Part shown: positions 11,098-49,954 of the stretch, piece after piece
Numbering within the stretch: the stretch's first letter is position 1
Layout of the letters: every line of letters begins with the position of its first letter
From: Alphaproteobacteria bacterium
GTDB lineage: Bacteria; Pseudomonadota; Alphaproteobacteria; Caulobacterales; Aquidulcibacteraceae
DNA length: 50,956 bases
Reading direction: 5' to 3'
Assembly: GCA_018971945.1 (NCBI GenBank)
Contig: JAGWZH010000011.1
Span: forward strand, 1-50,956
The notes under the pieces: generated by a model
The model's database searches: none
What the model was told of the DNA's origin: nothing
Seen by the model: the letters and a program-made list of their open reading frames with translations, nothing else
Program-made: the position numbers and the translations under genes

Positions 11098-11162
11098 AGC
11101 GGTGTTTAGCGGCCTCGGCCGCTTCGCCGCAACCCAGGCTTTTCGGCAGGGCCCGCGGCGCC

Positions 11163-11216
11163 TTGACCACCCTGACCACCCTGACCACCCTGACCGCCCT
11201 GACCGCCCTGACCGCC
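11163..11216. repeat. tandem repeat, 9-bp unit, six copies, in the leuC leader
   Basis: Six head-to-tail 9-mers: TTGACCACC once, CTGACCACC twice, then CTGACCGCC three times. On the leuC-coding (minus) strand this gives five GGG tracts, each separated by 6 nt (tracts at 11170, 11179, 11188, 11197, 11206), matching the G3-N(1-7) rule for a G-quadruplex. It starts 66 bp upstream of the leuC start codon and 139 bp after dapF. Confidence 0.95.
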
Positions 11217-27349: not shown

Positions 27350-28150
27350 ATGAGCGACATCAAAACCACGGGCGATTTCGCCCTTAGCCAATCGGTCAGC
27401 CACCTGCTGCACCGGGCGCAGCAATTGGCGGCGGACAGCTTCGCCCGCAAGGCCGGAGAAGATGGCGTGACGCTGAGGCAATTCGCCGTGCTCGCGGCGG
27501 TTTCGGAGAAGCCTGGTCAGAGCCAGACAGACCTCGTGAAGGCCACGGGCGTTGATCGCTCCACCCTTGCCGACATGATCGGCCGGATGGAAAAGCGCGG
27601 CTGGGTCACGCGGAAAACCGCGGCGAAGGACGCGCGGGCGAAGAGCGTGACACTCACCGCAGCAGGGAAAAAGACGCTGAGCCAAGCAACGCCGTTCGCT
27701 CGGGCGGCGGATGAAACCATTTTGAACGCTGTGCCCAAAGCCAAGCGCGATGCTTTTGTTGTGACGCTGGATGCGTTGTCGGCGGCGGCGGAGGCCGCGG
27801 CGGCTGCCGCGCCGGCCCCCAAGGTCGCCGCGCCAAAGGCCAAGCCTTCAAAAGGCGCTCCAGACAAGGCGGCTGCGAAAGCGGCGGCCAAGCCCGCAGT
27901 CAAGCCGGCGGCCAAGATCGCCGCCAAGCCGGCGGCCAAGCCAGCCGCCAAGATCGCGGCTAAACCGGCGGTGAAGCCCGCGCCGAAATCGGCTGCAAAG
28001 GCCTCGCCGGTCAAAGCGTCTTCGAAGCCCTCGGCCAAGCCCGCCCCGGCCAAAGCGCCAGCCACCTCGAAGCGGGGGAATGCGGCGAAGCCGTCGACGC
28101 GGGCGTCCCTCAAGCCCAGCTCGGCCAAGATACGCAAGCCACGCAAGTAA
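27350..28150 (+). CDS. MarR-family regulator with histone-H1-like C-terminal tail
   Basis: A 266-residue protein in two parts. Residues about 10-140 are a MarR winged helix-turn-helix: VSHLLHRAQQLAADSF, LRQFAVLAAVSEKPGQSQTDL, and the wing KKGWVTRKTAAKDARAKSVTLT-like region with DARAKSVTLTAAGKK. Residues about 150-266 are a Lys/Ala/Pro-rich tail with degenerate repeats such as AAKPAAKPAAKIAAKPAV, resembling eukaryotic histone H1 and bacterial AlgP/HctB tails, and very basic. A typical MarR has about 150 residues. The tail suggests sequence-independent DNA binding or nucleoid compaction added to sequence-specific binding. AAGGGG precedes the ATG. Confidence 0.92.
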   Translation: MSDIKTTGDFALSQSVSHLLHRAQQLAADSFARKAGEDGVTLRQFAVLAAVSEKPGQSQTDLVKATGVDRSTLADMIGRMEKRGWVTRKTAAKDARAKSVTLTAAGKKTLSQATPFARAADETILNAVPKAKRDAFVVTLDALSAAAEAAAAAAPAPKVAAPKAKPSKGAPDKAAAKAAAKPAVKPAAKIAAKPAAKPAAKIAAKPAVKPAPKSAAKASPVKASSKPSAKPAPAKAPATSKRGNAAKPSTRASLKPSSAKIRKPRK

Positions 28151-47550: not shown

Positions 47551-48291
47551 TCAGACTCGCAGCGTCAGACCGCCATCGACGGCGATCGCTTGGCCCGTGA
47601 TGAACGACGCGGCGTCCGAAGCGAGAAACACAGCGAGCCGCGCGACGTCTTCGGGCTGGCCGACACGACGCAGGGCGGCCTTTTTCGCCCAAAGCTCCGC
47701 GATCTCAGGATGCGCCTCCCAAAGGGGCTTGGTCATGCCCGTGGCGATGGCGCCAGGAAGGATCGCATTGGCGGTTACGCCATGCTTGCCCCACTCGAGC
47801 GCCAGAGTGCGCACAAGGCCGAGTACGCCCGTCTTCGACGCGCAATAACCAGCAAGACCGTAATTCGTTCCTTCGGCCATGACGGAGGCGGTCACCAGAA
47901 ACCGACCAGCCGGGCTTTGCGCCAGATAAGGCGCAGCGGAGCGGGCGAGCCGGAAGGGCGCGCTCAGATTCACAGCAAGCTGTTCTTCCCAGGCGGCGTC
48001 GTCCATCTCAGCAGCAAGCGCATTGCGAACCATGCCTGCGTTGGCGAAGACGATGTCGAGGCTGGGGAGGGCCAAGACGGCTTCTTGAACAGTCTCGGCC
48101 GCGGCGGCGGCATCAGCGAAATCCGCCGGACGCGTGAACGCCCCCCTGCGCGCCAACGGCGCCATGCCAGCGCTATTGCGGTCGACGGCGAAGACGCGGG
48201 CGCCTTCGTCAAGAAACGCCTCAACGGCCGCATAACCGATGCCGGACGCGGCGCCAGTGACAAGAGCGGTTCGGCCTTCAAGGACTCCCAT
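47551..48291 (-). CDS. short-chain dehydrogenase/reductase
   Basis: A 246-residue classical SDR: TALVTGAASGIGYAAV (NAD(P)-binding TGxxxGIG), DIVFANAGM (NAG), catalytic Ser in LVTASVMAEG and Y-x3-K in YCASKTGV. AAGGAG sits about 8 nt before the ATG at 48291, so the longer frame from 48381 is rejected. The ARVFAVDR segment puts an Asp after the second strand, which favours NAD+ over NADP+. Substrate unknown. It lies alone upstream of the ABC cassette. Confidence 0.93.
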   Translation of the reverse strand: MGVLEGRTALVTGAASGIGYAAVEAFLDEGARVFAVDRNSAGMAPLARRGAFTRPADFADAAAAAETVQEAVLALPSLDIVFANAGMVRNALAAEMDDAAWEEQLAVNLSAPFRLARSAAPYLAQSPAGRFLVTASVMAEGTNYGLAGYCASKTGVLGLVRTLALEWGKHGVTANAILPGAIATGMTKPLWEAHPEIAELWAKKAALRRVGQPEDVARLAVFLASDAASFITGQAIAVDGGLTLRV

Positions 48292-48450: not shown

Positions 48451-48480
48451 GAAAACGCCGCCGAGCCTCGCTCGACGGCG
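48451..48480 (-). terminator. intrinsic terminator-like hairpin with TTTT on the minus strand
   Basis: Stem of 11 bp (one mismatch, positions 48456-48466 with 48470-48480) around a 3-nt loop, followed on the minus strand by TTTTC. It would stop minus-strand transcripts entering from 48716, yet no recognised minus-strand gene lies immediately upstream. Confidence 0.55.
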
Positions 48481-48556
48481 CTTCAGAATGATCTTGCGGG
48501 CCGGGTCAGAGTGCATTCCACTCCCAGGGGGCTGGGGGGGCTGATGGAATCTGGAA

Positions 48557-48570
48557 GAGAACGCGTTCTC
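48557..48570. promoter_or_regulatory. perfect 14-bp palindrome, possible operator
   Basis: GAGAACGCGTTCTC is self-complementary. Its AACGCGTT centre resembles LacI/GalR-type operators in general, but no such regulator gene is nearby. It is 147 bp before the DUF2794 start and 266 bp before the SDR start. Confidence 0.4.
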
Positions 48571-48716
48571 CATCCCGGCCACATGTGCAGGATCATCTTT
48601 CGCGATGGCGGAAGCAAGCAGAAAACAGGGCGAAAATCGGACCTGTCGTAGAATTCATCGGCAAGGCCGATCACCCTCGGGGGGAAGCTTTGCCAATCAA
48701 TGTTTTAGGAGGCCCA

Positions 48717-49043
48717 GTGGAGAAAATAGCGACGCCTGGGGCGGTAAAGATTTATTTTGAGCGGCGGGAATTGACCCTGATCCTTGGGGTCTATGGGCGG
48801 ATGGTCGCAGCGGGCGAATGGCGGGACTATGCTGTTGATCCCCTGGGGGATCGCTGCGTTTTCAGTGTGTTCCGCAGGGCCAGCGAATCACCGCTTTATC
48901 GCATCGAAAAGCAGCCCGCTTTGGCCCGCAAACAGGGCGCGTTCAGCGTGGTCGCGCAACACGGTCAGATCCTCCGCCGGGGCCATGACATCAGCGCGGT
49001 GCTGCGCGTGTTCGAGCAGGGGCGCTTCGCCATCGTGGACTAA
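48717..49043 (+). CDS. DUF2794 protein
   Basis: A 108-residue protein of an alphaproteobacterial family of unknown role: VKIYFERRELTLILGVYGRMVAAGEWRDYA (by parts FERRELTLILGVYGRMV and AAGEWRDYAVDPLGD), VFSVFRRASESPLYRIEK and GHDISAVLRVFEQG are typical of DUF2794. I choose the GTG at 48717 because AGGAGG precedes it by 6 nt; a longer frame back to 48585 has no homology-like content. It is divergent from the SDR and ends 18 bp before the 13-bp repeat array. Confidence 0.88.
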   Translation: MEKIATPGAVKIYFERRELTLILGVYGRMVAAGEWRDYAVDPLGDRCVFSVFRRASESPLYRIEKQPALARKQGAFSVVAQHGQILRRGHDISAVLRVFEQGRFAIVD

Positions 49044-49060
49044 ACAGAGTGGATGACGCC

Positions 49061-49138
49061 CTGTCTCTGGGCCCTGTCTCTGGGCCCTGTCTCTGGGCCC
49101 CGTCTCTGGGCCCCGTCTCTGGGCCCCGTCTCTGGGCC
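49061..49138. repeat. tandem repeat, 13-bp unit, six copies (3+3 variants)
   Basis: Six exact 13-mers: CTGTCTCTGGGCC at 49061, 49074 and 49087, then CCGTCTCTGGGCC at 49100, 49113 and 49126. Every junction makes the palindrome GGGCCC. Located between DUF2794 and the Bax-inhibitor terminator, in a convergent gap. Confidence 0.97.
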
Positions 49139-49219: not shown

Positions 49220-49954
49220 TCAATCGCGCGGCGCCATGATGCTGAGGATGAACTGGAACATGTTGATGAAGTTCAGATAGAGGCTCAGCGCGCCGAAAGT
49301 GGTGATGACGCTGAGGGCGCGGGCGTCACCGCCATATTCGTAGTAAGAATATTTCAGGCGCTGGGTGTCGAAAGCCGTCAAGAGGCCAAACAGACCCACG
49401 CCGATCACGCTGATCGCAAAATGCAACGCGCTCGAGGCAATGAACATATTGACGATCGAGGCAATGATGAGCCCGACTACCCCCATGATCAGGAATGTTC
49501 CCATCGGGGTCAGGTCGCGCTTGGTGGTGTAACCCCAGAGGCTCAACGCGCCAAACGCCACAGCCGTGGTCAGGAAGGCCTTGGCCACAGCGATCATGCC
49601 GCCAGGGATGCCGGCATAGGTGTAGACGATCGCGCCCATGCCCACGCCGATCATGGACACCACGGCCCAATAGATCAAGTTCGCCGCCAGCGGCGACGGG
49701 TTACGCATTGCGAAGGCTGAGATCAGCAACAAGCCGATGGGACCAAACATCACCACCCAGCGCAGGGGCGTCCCGAACACAACGGCCATCGCCTGGGCGT
49801 TGGAGCCGACGGCGAAAGCCAAGAGGCCGGTCAGCAAGAGGCCGAGGGCCATTTTGTTGTAGACCCCGAGCATAAAACTGCGCAGACCGACGTCGACCGC
49901 CATATCGGCGCGGCCCGTTGGGATCGTACGGGCCTGACCCAGCATGTGGTTCAT
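49220..49954 (-). CDS. Bax inhibitor-1/YccA family membrane protein
   Basis: A 244-residue protein with seven predicted helices. The family elements are visible: LRSFMLGVYNKMALGLLLTG, ANLIYWAVVSMIGVGMG, and the C-terminal GLFGLLTAFDTQRLKYSYYE with the conserved F-D-T-Q, then INMFQFIL. BI-1 proteins form pH-sensitive calcium leak-type channels and YccA modulates FtsH; which role applies is unknown. AAGGAG precedes the ATG at 49954. It ends at a strong intrinsic terminator. Confidence 0.92.
   Translation of the reverse strand: MNHMLGQARTIPTGRADMAVDVGLRSFMLGVYNKMALGLLLTGLLAFAVGSNAQAMAVVFGTPLRWVVMFGPIGLLLISAFAMRNPSPLAANLIYWAVVSMIGVGMGAIVYTYAGIPGGMIAVAKAFLTTAVAFGALSLWGYTTKRDLTPMGTFLIMGVVGLIIASIVNMFIASSALHFAISVIGVGLFGLLTAFDTQRLKYSYYEYGGDARALSVITTFGALSLYLNFINMFQFILSIMAPRD

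Follow-up and report, generated by a model that had tools for sequence, protein, structure and literature searches.

A predicted small RNA gene with a conserved C-rich loop, often divergent from DUF2794, in Alphaproteobacteria

What does a strong hairpin followed by a run of T terminate when it lies between two divergently oriented genes? The question is raised by the minus strand of a 50,956-nucleotide stretch (the window; GenBank assembly GCA_018971945.1, contig JAGWZH010000011.1) from an alphaproteobacterium of the Aquidulcibacteraceae. A sequence-only reading had described a strong hairpin with TTTT after a GTG-started frame, in the divergent gap before an SDR gene, and had offered three explanations: an uncharacterised small gene, a regulatory RNA or an attenuated SDR leader. 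Both hairpin and frame are present as described. The hairpin (48451-48484, minus strand) lies directly 3' of the frame (48674-48483, minus strand), between the SDR gene (47551-48291, minus strand; Pfam adh_short_C2, E 7.3e-58), a downstream neighbour outside the RNA gene proposed here, and the divergent DUF2794 gene (48717-49043, plus strand; Pfam PF10984, E 1.2e-37). The 3 bp said to separate frame and hairpin fared less well, as the outermost pairs reach the stop codon and the gap depends on the stem start chosen. The hairpin has a folding energy of -25.7 kcal/mol (z -4.2), none of 200 dinucleotide shuffles folds equally well, and GTTTTC follows the stem on its 3' side. A simple terminator scan that calls for five T in eight bases does not list it. 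The 277-nt stretch of the minus strand as a whole also folds better than its own shuffles (z -3.2, 0 of 200), and a second, longer hairpin, absent from the earlier description, stands immediately 5' of the terminator hairpin. The terminator hairpin is most plausibly the 3' end of a free-standing minus-strand small RNA gene, rather than of a protein-coding gene or a leader of the SDR gene. For a stand-alone gene whose predicted RNA acts in trans, we estimate a probability of about 0.75.

The longer hairpin (48494-48584, minus strand), delimited by its match to the covariance model R3 described below, comprises two helices with 23 consensus pairs. Between its arms lies a 23-nt C-rich loop, AUUCCAUCAGCCCCCCCAGCCCC (48528-48550, minus strand), that is unpaired in the predicted fold. 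The core of the loop, CCCCCAGCCCC, is near-invariant among 87 relatives, and the loop is open in 22 of 23 sequences folded singly, the exception being locus L019. A DNA search of 61 genomes matched 25, the window's own genome among them; 24 of the 25 match rows outside that genome fall on one short C-rich segment and one elsewhere.

Covariation of the stem was assessed with successive alignments and models. Alignment A3 (7 sequences) yielded model R1, and the R1 matches over 72 sources were assembled into A4 (71 rows), from which model R2 was derived. Alignment A5 was gathered with R2 from 84 loci, excluding the window and deliberately omitting L001, and contains 87 rows, 86 of them distinct. 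Two earlier alignments, A1 and A2, were discarded for misregistered stem arms or a truncated window row. Both-side changes occur at 22 of the 23 pairs in A4, where 92.9% of cells are paired, as compared with 66.4% after shuffling and at most 48.5% after sliding. In A5, compensatory change is seen in 23 of 23 pairs and 91.2% of cells are paired, where shuffling gives 64.7% and sliding at most 50.8%; A4 and A5 were fitted to the structure, hence both are biased towards pairing. Model R3, built from A5 and so without the window's row, matches the window with 55.3 bits (E 1.7e-9), a score not wholly independent of the window because the ancestral models R1 (7 rows) and R2 (71 rows) included it. 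At the level of sequence comparison, the ~90-nt hairpin shows strong selection on pairing and little on the sequence of the stem, together with a near-invariant loop. The element is probably a single long spoon-shaped hairpin in which a freely varying stem presents a nearly constant C-rich loop, with a probable role in gripping other RNAs.

The small RNA is predicted to extend over ~135 nt (48451-48585, minus strand), from the hairpin start given by R2 and R3 to the end of the terminator. A CTTG[ACT] box precedes the hairpin start by 33-36 nt in 23 of 24 members, the window among them; shuffles gave a mean of 1.7 and a maximum of 7. In the window this -35-like box reads CTTGCT (48613-48618, minus strand), and the -10 region is poor, with no clear box. 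None of the 24 upstream regions, that of the window included, contains an EcfG-like box. In L023 and in five named loci, the 136-nt Rfam unit of the Caulobacter sRNA CC3664 starts 2 nt within the hairpin, which would place the RNA at about 48585 to 48451 here. The 5' end is uncertain because the unit of a second Rfam family, BjrC174, starts ~84 nt further upstream (L117), at odds with an RNA that begins at the hairpin. At the other end, 49 of 87 members, the window included, have a terminator-like hairpin within the 110 nt that follow the element, as compared with 2 of 87 shuffles, and the same single rule finds none in the remaining 38; one of 88 members was dropped since its flank was too short.

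Conservation in relatives had been suggested as a check on both the hairpin and the codon structure; a terminator-like hairpin recurs in the 49 members just mentioned, and the frame is not conserved. A small protein gene of 63 codons (48674-48483, minus strand) would explain an open frame that ends at the terminator, and tblastn does match it in one further genome (E 1e-6). Yet the frame is found in 2 of 128 loci, both in that single genome, and among 23 relatives none retains its start and stop together, 5 having no start-to-stop frame in phase at all. A Pfam search of the frame gave no match. Moreover, the inferred RNA begins ~90 nt 3' of the GTG, and the pattern of conservation is that of RNA pairing. 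Judged by these comparisons the frame looks like a chance one; the small protein was rejected for lack of conservation, and we attach hardly any probability to it.

The idea of an attenuated SDR leader fails on the gene neighbours. According to this explanation the hairpin would halt transcription before the SDR gene unless a signal intervenes, and the arrangement is suitable: the element is on the same strand, with ~160 bp between it and the SDR start, and the same order is seen in 9 distinct loci. However, those 9 are the distinct members of a set of 11 among 128 loci with an SDR gene in the fetched flanks, as against an RNA that R3 detects as a single copy in 35 of the 37 genomes from the window's own family (both misses belong to genus g13) and that occurs in orders with other neighbours, a terminator-like hairpin of its own accompanying about half of the members, as counted above. 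The SDR leader was accordingly rejected and is very improbable. The regulatory RNA, the remaining proposal of the sequence-only reading, is strongly supported by the covarying hairpin, its retention in the family and the terminator-like hairpin.

The neighbour that recurs is DUF2794. Among the 35 family genomes with the RNA, DUF2794 is adjacent and divergent in 18, located elsewhere in 11 and not found in 6, so that the RNA lacks DUF2794 beside it in 17. A scan of the class with R2 matched 15 of 289 genomes, the window included, at E <= 0.001, under strict filters and whole-genome E-values with which non-matches do not establish absence. Thirteen of these 15 matches lie within 1.6 kb of a divergent DUF2794 gene, to which R2 is blind; the exceptions are G285 and G182. 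DUF2794 itself is present in 155 of the 289 genomes. The loop pattern matched 18 of the same genomes, several of these matches being clearly another element, and a reversed control pattern also matches some. R3 matched 9 of 150 genomes in a scan of the phylum, every one of them in the same class. When named relatives were ranked by DUF2794, Caulobacteraceae topped the list, which, together with CC3664 matches in genomes of the window's order, suggests a position of the organism in or near Caulobacterales. Further loci, or loci negative earlier, matched R2 at E <= 2 in 18 of 72 cases, and Rhizobiaceae-like DUF2794 loci matched R3 at E <= 0.05 in 18 of 30, with no match in 12. The genus of the Rhizobiaceae-like genome G492 gave 0 of 31 at E <= 0.001, a scan that is insensitive there, as G492, itself the source of a locus, also fell below the threshold.

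These distributions bear on the further explanation that the element acts as DNA, its G-rich plus strand serving as a divergent promoter or operator of DUF2794. The plus strand of the loop is indeed G-rich, and in 44 of 80 named loci the loop pattern lies no more than 700 bp upstream of DUF2794 (it is absent from that interval in 36, one or two of which lacked upstream sequence). An operator is nevertheless difficult to reconcile with the family genomes that keep the element with DUF2794 elsewhere or not seen, with compensatory changes at all 23 pairs, or with a promoter box and a terminator that are both on the minus strand; we consider it as improbable as the small protein. We read the distribution as that of an independent gene whose link to DUF2794 is old but can be lost. 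The -35-like box, the terminator-like hairpin, the single-copy retention, the covariation and the near-constancy of the loop argue together for an sRNA gene.

Several observations were made on the surroundings of DUF2794. A Bax1-I (Bax inhibitor-like) gene (49220-49954) faces DUF2794 in the window, and because a homologue is present in 81 of 128 fetched loci, the RNA, DUF2794 and Bax1-I appear to travel together often. Three Caulobacter loci carry two tandem copies of the sRNA upstream of DUF2794 (L060, 2006-2084 and 2237-2320; L053, 2009-2092 and 2264-2345; L057, 1990-2064 and 2207-2289), the copies differing in the flanks of the loop. Two loci labelled Boseongicola and Paracoccaceae, L095 and L121, have a strong hairpin with the loop CAGCCCCCACCCAGCC upstream of DUF2794 that R2 did not report and that is possibly a diverged Rhodobacterales form.

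Small RNAs of this kind are already known. CC3664 was reportedly first described by Landt in 2008, and BjrC174, an sRNA of Bradyrhizobiaceae, by Madhugiri in 2012. The window gives a full-length minus-strand match to BjrC174 (RF02355) at 48658-48451 with 22.2 bits (E 0.4 for 3.1 kb), below the gathering cut-off of 45 bits, and a full-length match to CC3664 (RF01530) with 13.8 bits, below the cut-off of 60 bits. When gathering thresholds were applied to 20 named loci, 10 were assigned to BjrC174 and 5 to CC3664, in each case on the same element upstream of DUF2794, and 5 to neither; among 18 other loci, L023 alone exceeded the CC3664 threshold. BjrC174 resembles the RNA of the window in strand, loop core, hairpin and location upstream of DUF2794; it differs in the length of its Rfam unit (201 nt) and in its drawn structure, where parts of the loop are paired otherwise. 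CC3664 has the same hairpin, loop and location, and its 136-nt unit approximates the predicted RNA length, whereas its loop flanks are GAACAG in Caulobacteraceae as opposed to CAUCAG in the window. The window shares with the wider family delineated by R3 the hairpin and loop match, compensatory changes in the stem and a divergent DUF2794 gene, the last being usual and not required. By place, fold and loop, BjrC174 and CC3664 look like parts of a single wider family; the window falls between the two and below either cut-off. The RF02355 and RF01530 models describe the same element with differing boundaries and structures, and a merged Rfam model may be warranted. What is new is that families kept apart seem to be one. 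In B. japonicum, BjrC174 is described as an abundant sRNA with strong promoter activity (PMC4842269).

A third RNA probably belongs to the same widespread family, as judged by analogy of shape and numbering and not by sequence. PmaR of Agrobacterium tumefaciens is depicted as a spoon-like RNA with a C-rich end loop closed by G47 and containing CCCA (58-61) and an accessible G62; replacement of CCCA by UUUU abolishes target regulation (PMC6234868). The same report states that PmaR raises most of its targets and is not a plain anti-Shine-Dalgarno RNA, and its authors regard PmaR as limited to Agrobacterium and one Rhizobium strain (PMC6234868). By comparison with the published description, the window likewise has a long stem and a C-rich end loop with CCCAG. 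Counted manually from the closing G, the PmaR numbering (G47, then CCCA and G at 58-62) fits the loop of the Rhizobiaceae-like locus L215, which itself matches R3 weakly (19.0 bits, E 0.17). No title or passage found in the open PMC literature links BjrC174, CC3664 and PmaR.

GsrN, the general stress sRNA of Caulobacter, also has an exposed C-rich loop, which pairs with G-rich mRNA, and an intrinsic terminator (PMC5869019). It is transcribed by sigma-EcfG, and most of its homologues are located near the ecfG locus (PMC5869019), in contrast to the RNA described here, whose neighbour is DUF2794 and which has no EcfG-like box in any of the 24 upstream regions scanned. Identity with GsrN was ruled out on this other locus and promoter as reported there. 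RusT, which is placed between lolA and xth (PMC11005374), was ruled out as well, as were CrfA and SisA-D, described as other RNAs (PMC12559287).

By analogy to PmaR, a mechanism can be outlined for the sRNA gene. A vegetative-sigma promoter would give rise to the ~135-nt RNA ending at the terminator hairpin, and the exposed loop would pair with G-rich stretches of several mRNAs. Such pairing might then alter how stable the mRNAs are or how well they are translated, as has been published for PmaR, an RNA of similar build. In the window's genome, the loop core has exact complements at 4 sites beyond the gene itself, as compared with 7 for the reversed pattern, which is no enrichment, and none of these sites is in a clear ribosome-binding site. 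This result is in keeping with the main rival explanation, in which the loop binds a single conserved partner, either a protein or an abundant RNA; the sRNA would then titrate or scaffold it and would not pair with many mRNAs. A loop core that barely varies across orders while the stem is free to vary also favours a single partner. On the other hand, GsrN and PmaR, both with C-rich loops, are reported to act through mRNA pairing (PMC5869019, PMC6234868), and we regard the single partner as unlikely, with pairing in trans to several mRNAs as the preferred reading.

More tentatively, and with rather less than even odds, we propose that BjrC174, CC3664, PmaR and the RNA of the window are one ancient alphaproteobacterial sRNA that was inherited beside DUF2794 and retained when the link was lost. 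Its loop would have stayed nearly constant across orders through gripping one conserved partner or one class of G-rich sites. Were the four to form one family, the published PmaR loop mutant and target list would provide testable predictions in many bacteria. A deep alignment is now at hand for target prediction, and the association offers a clue to the function of DUF2794, an uncharacterised protein.

Repeats were also noted in the window. A 13-bp tandem repeat, GCCCCGTCTCTGG, with 6.2 copies and 98% matches, occupies 49058-49138 directly after the DUF2794 stop codon. Further arrays occupy 2784-2857 and 11159-11216; another, at 27882-27982, is longer and of low complexity.
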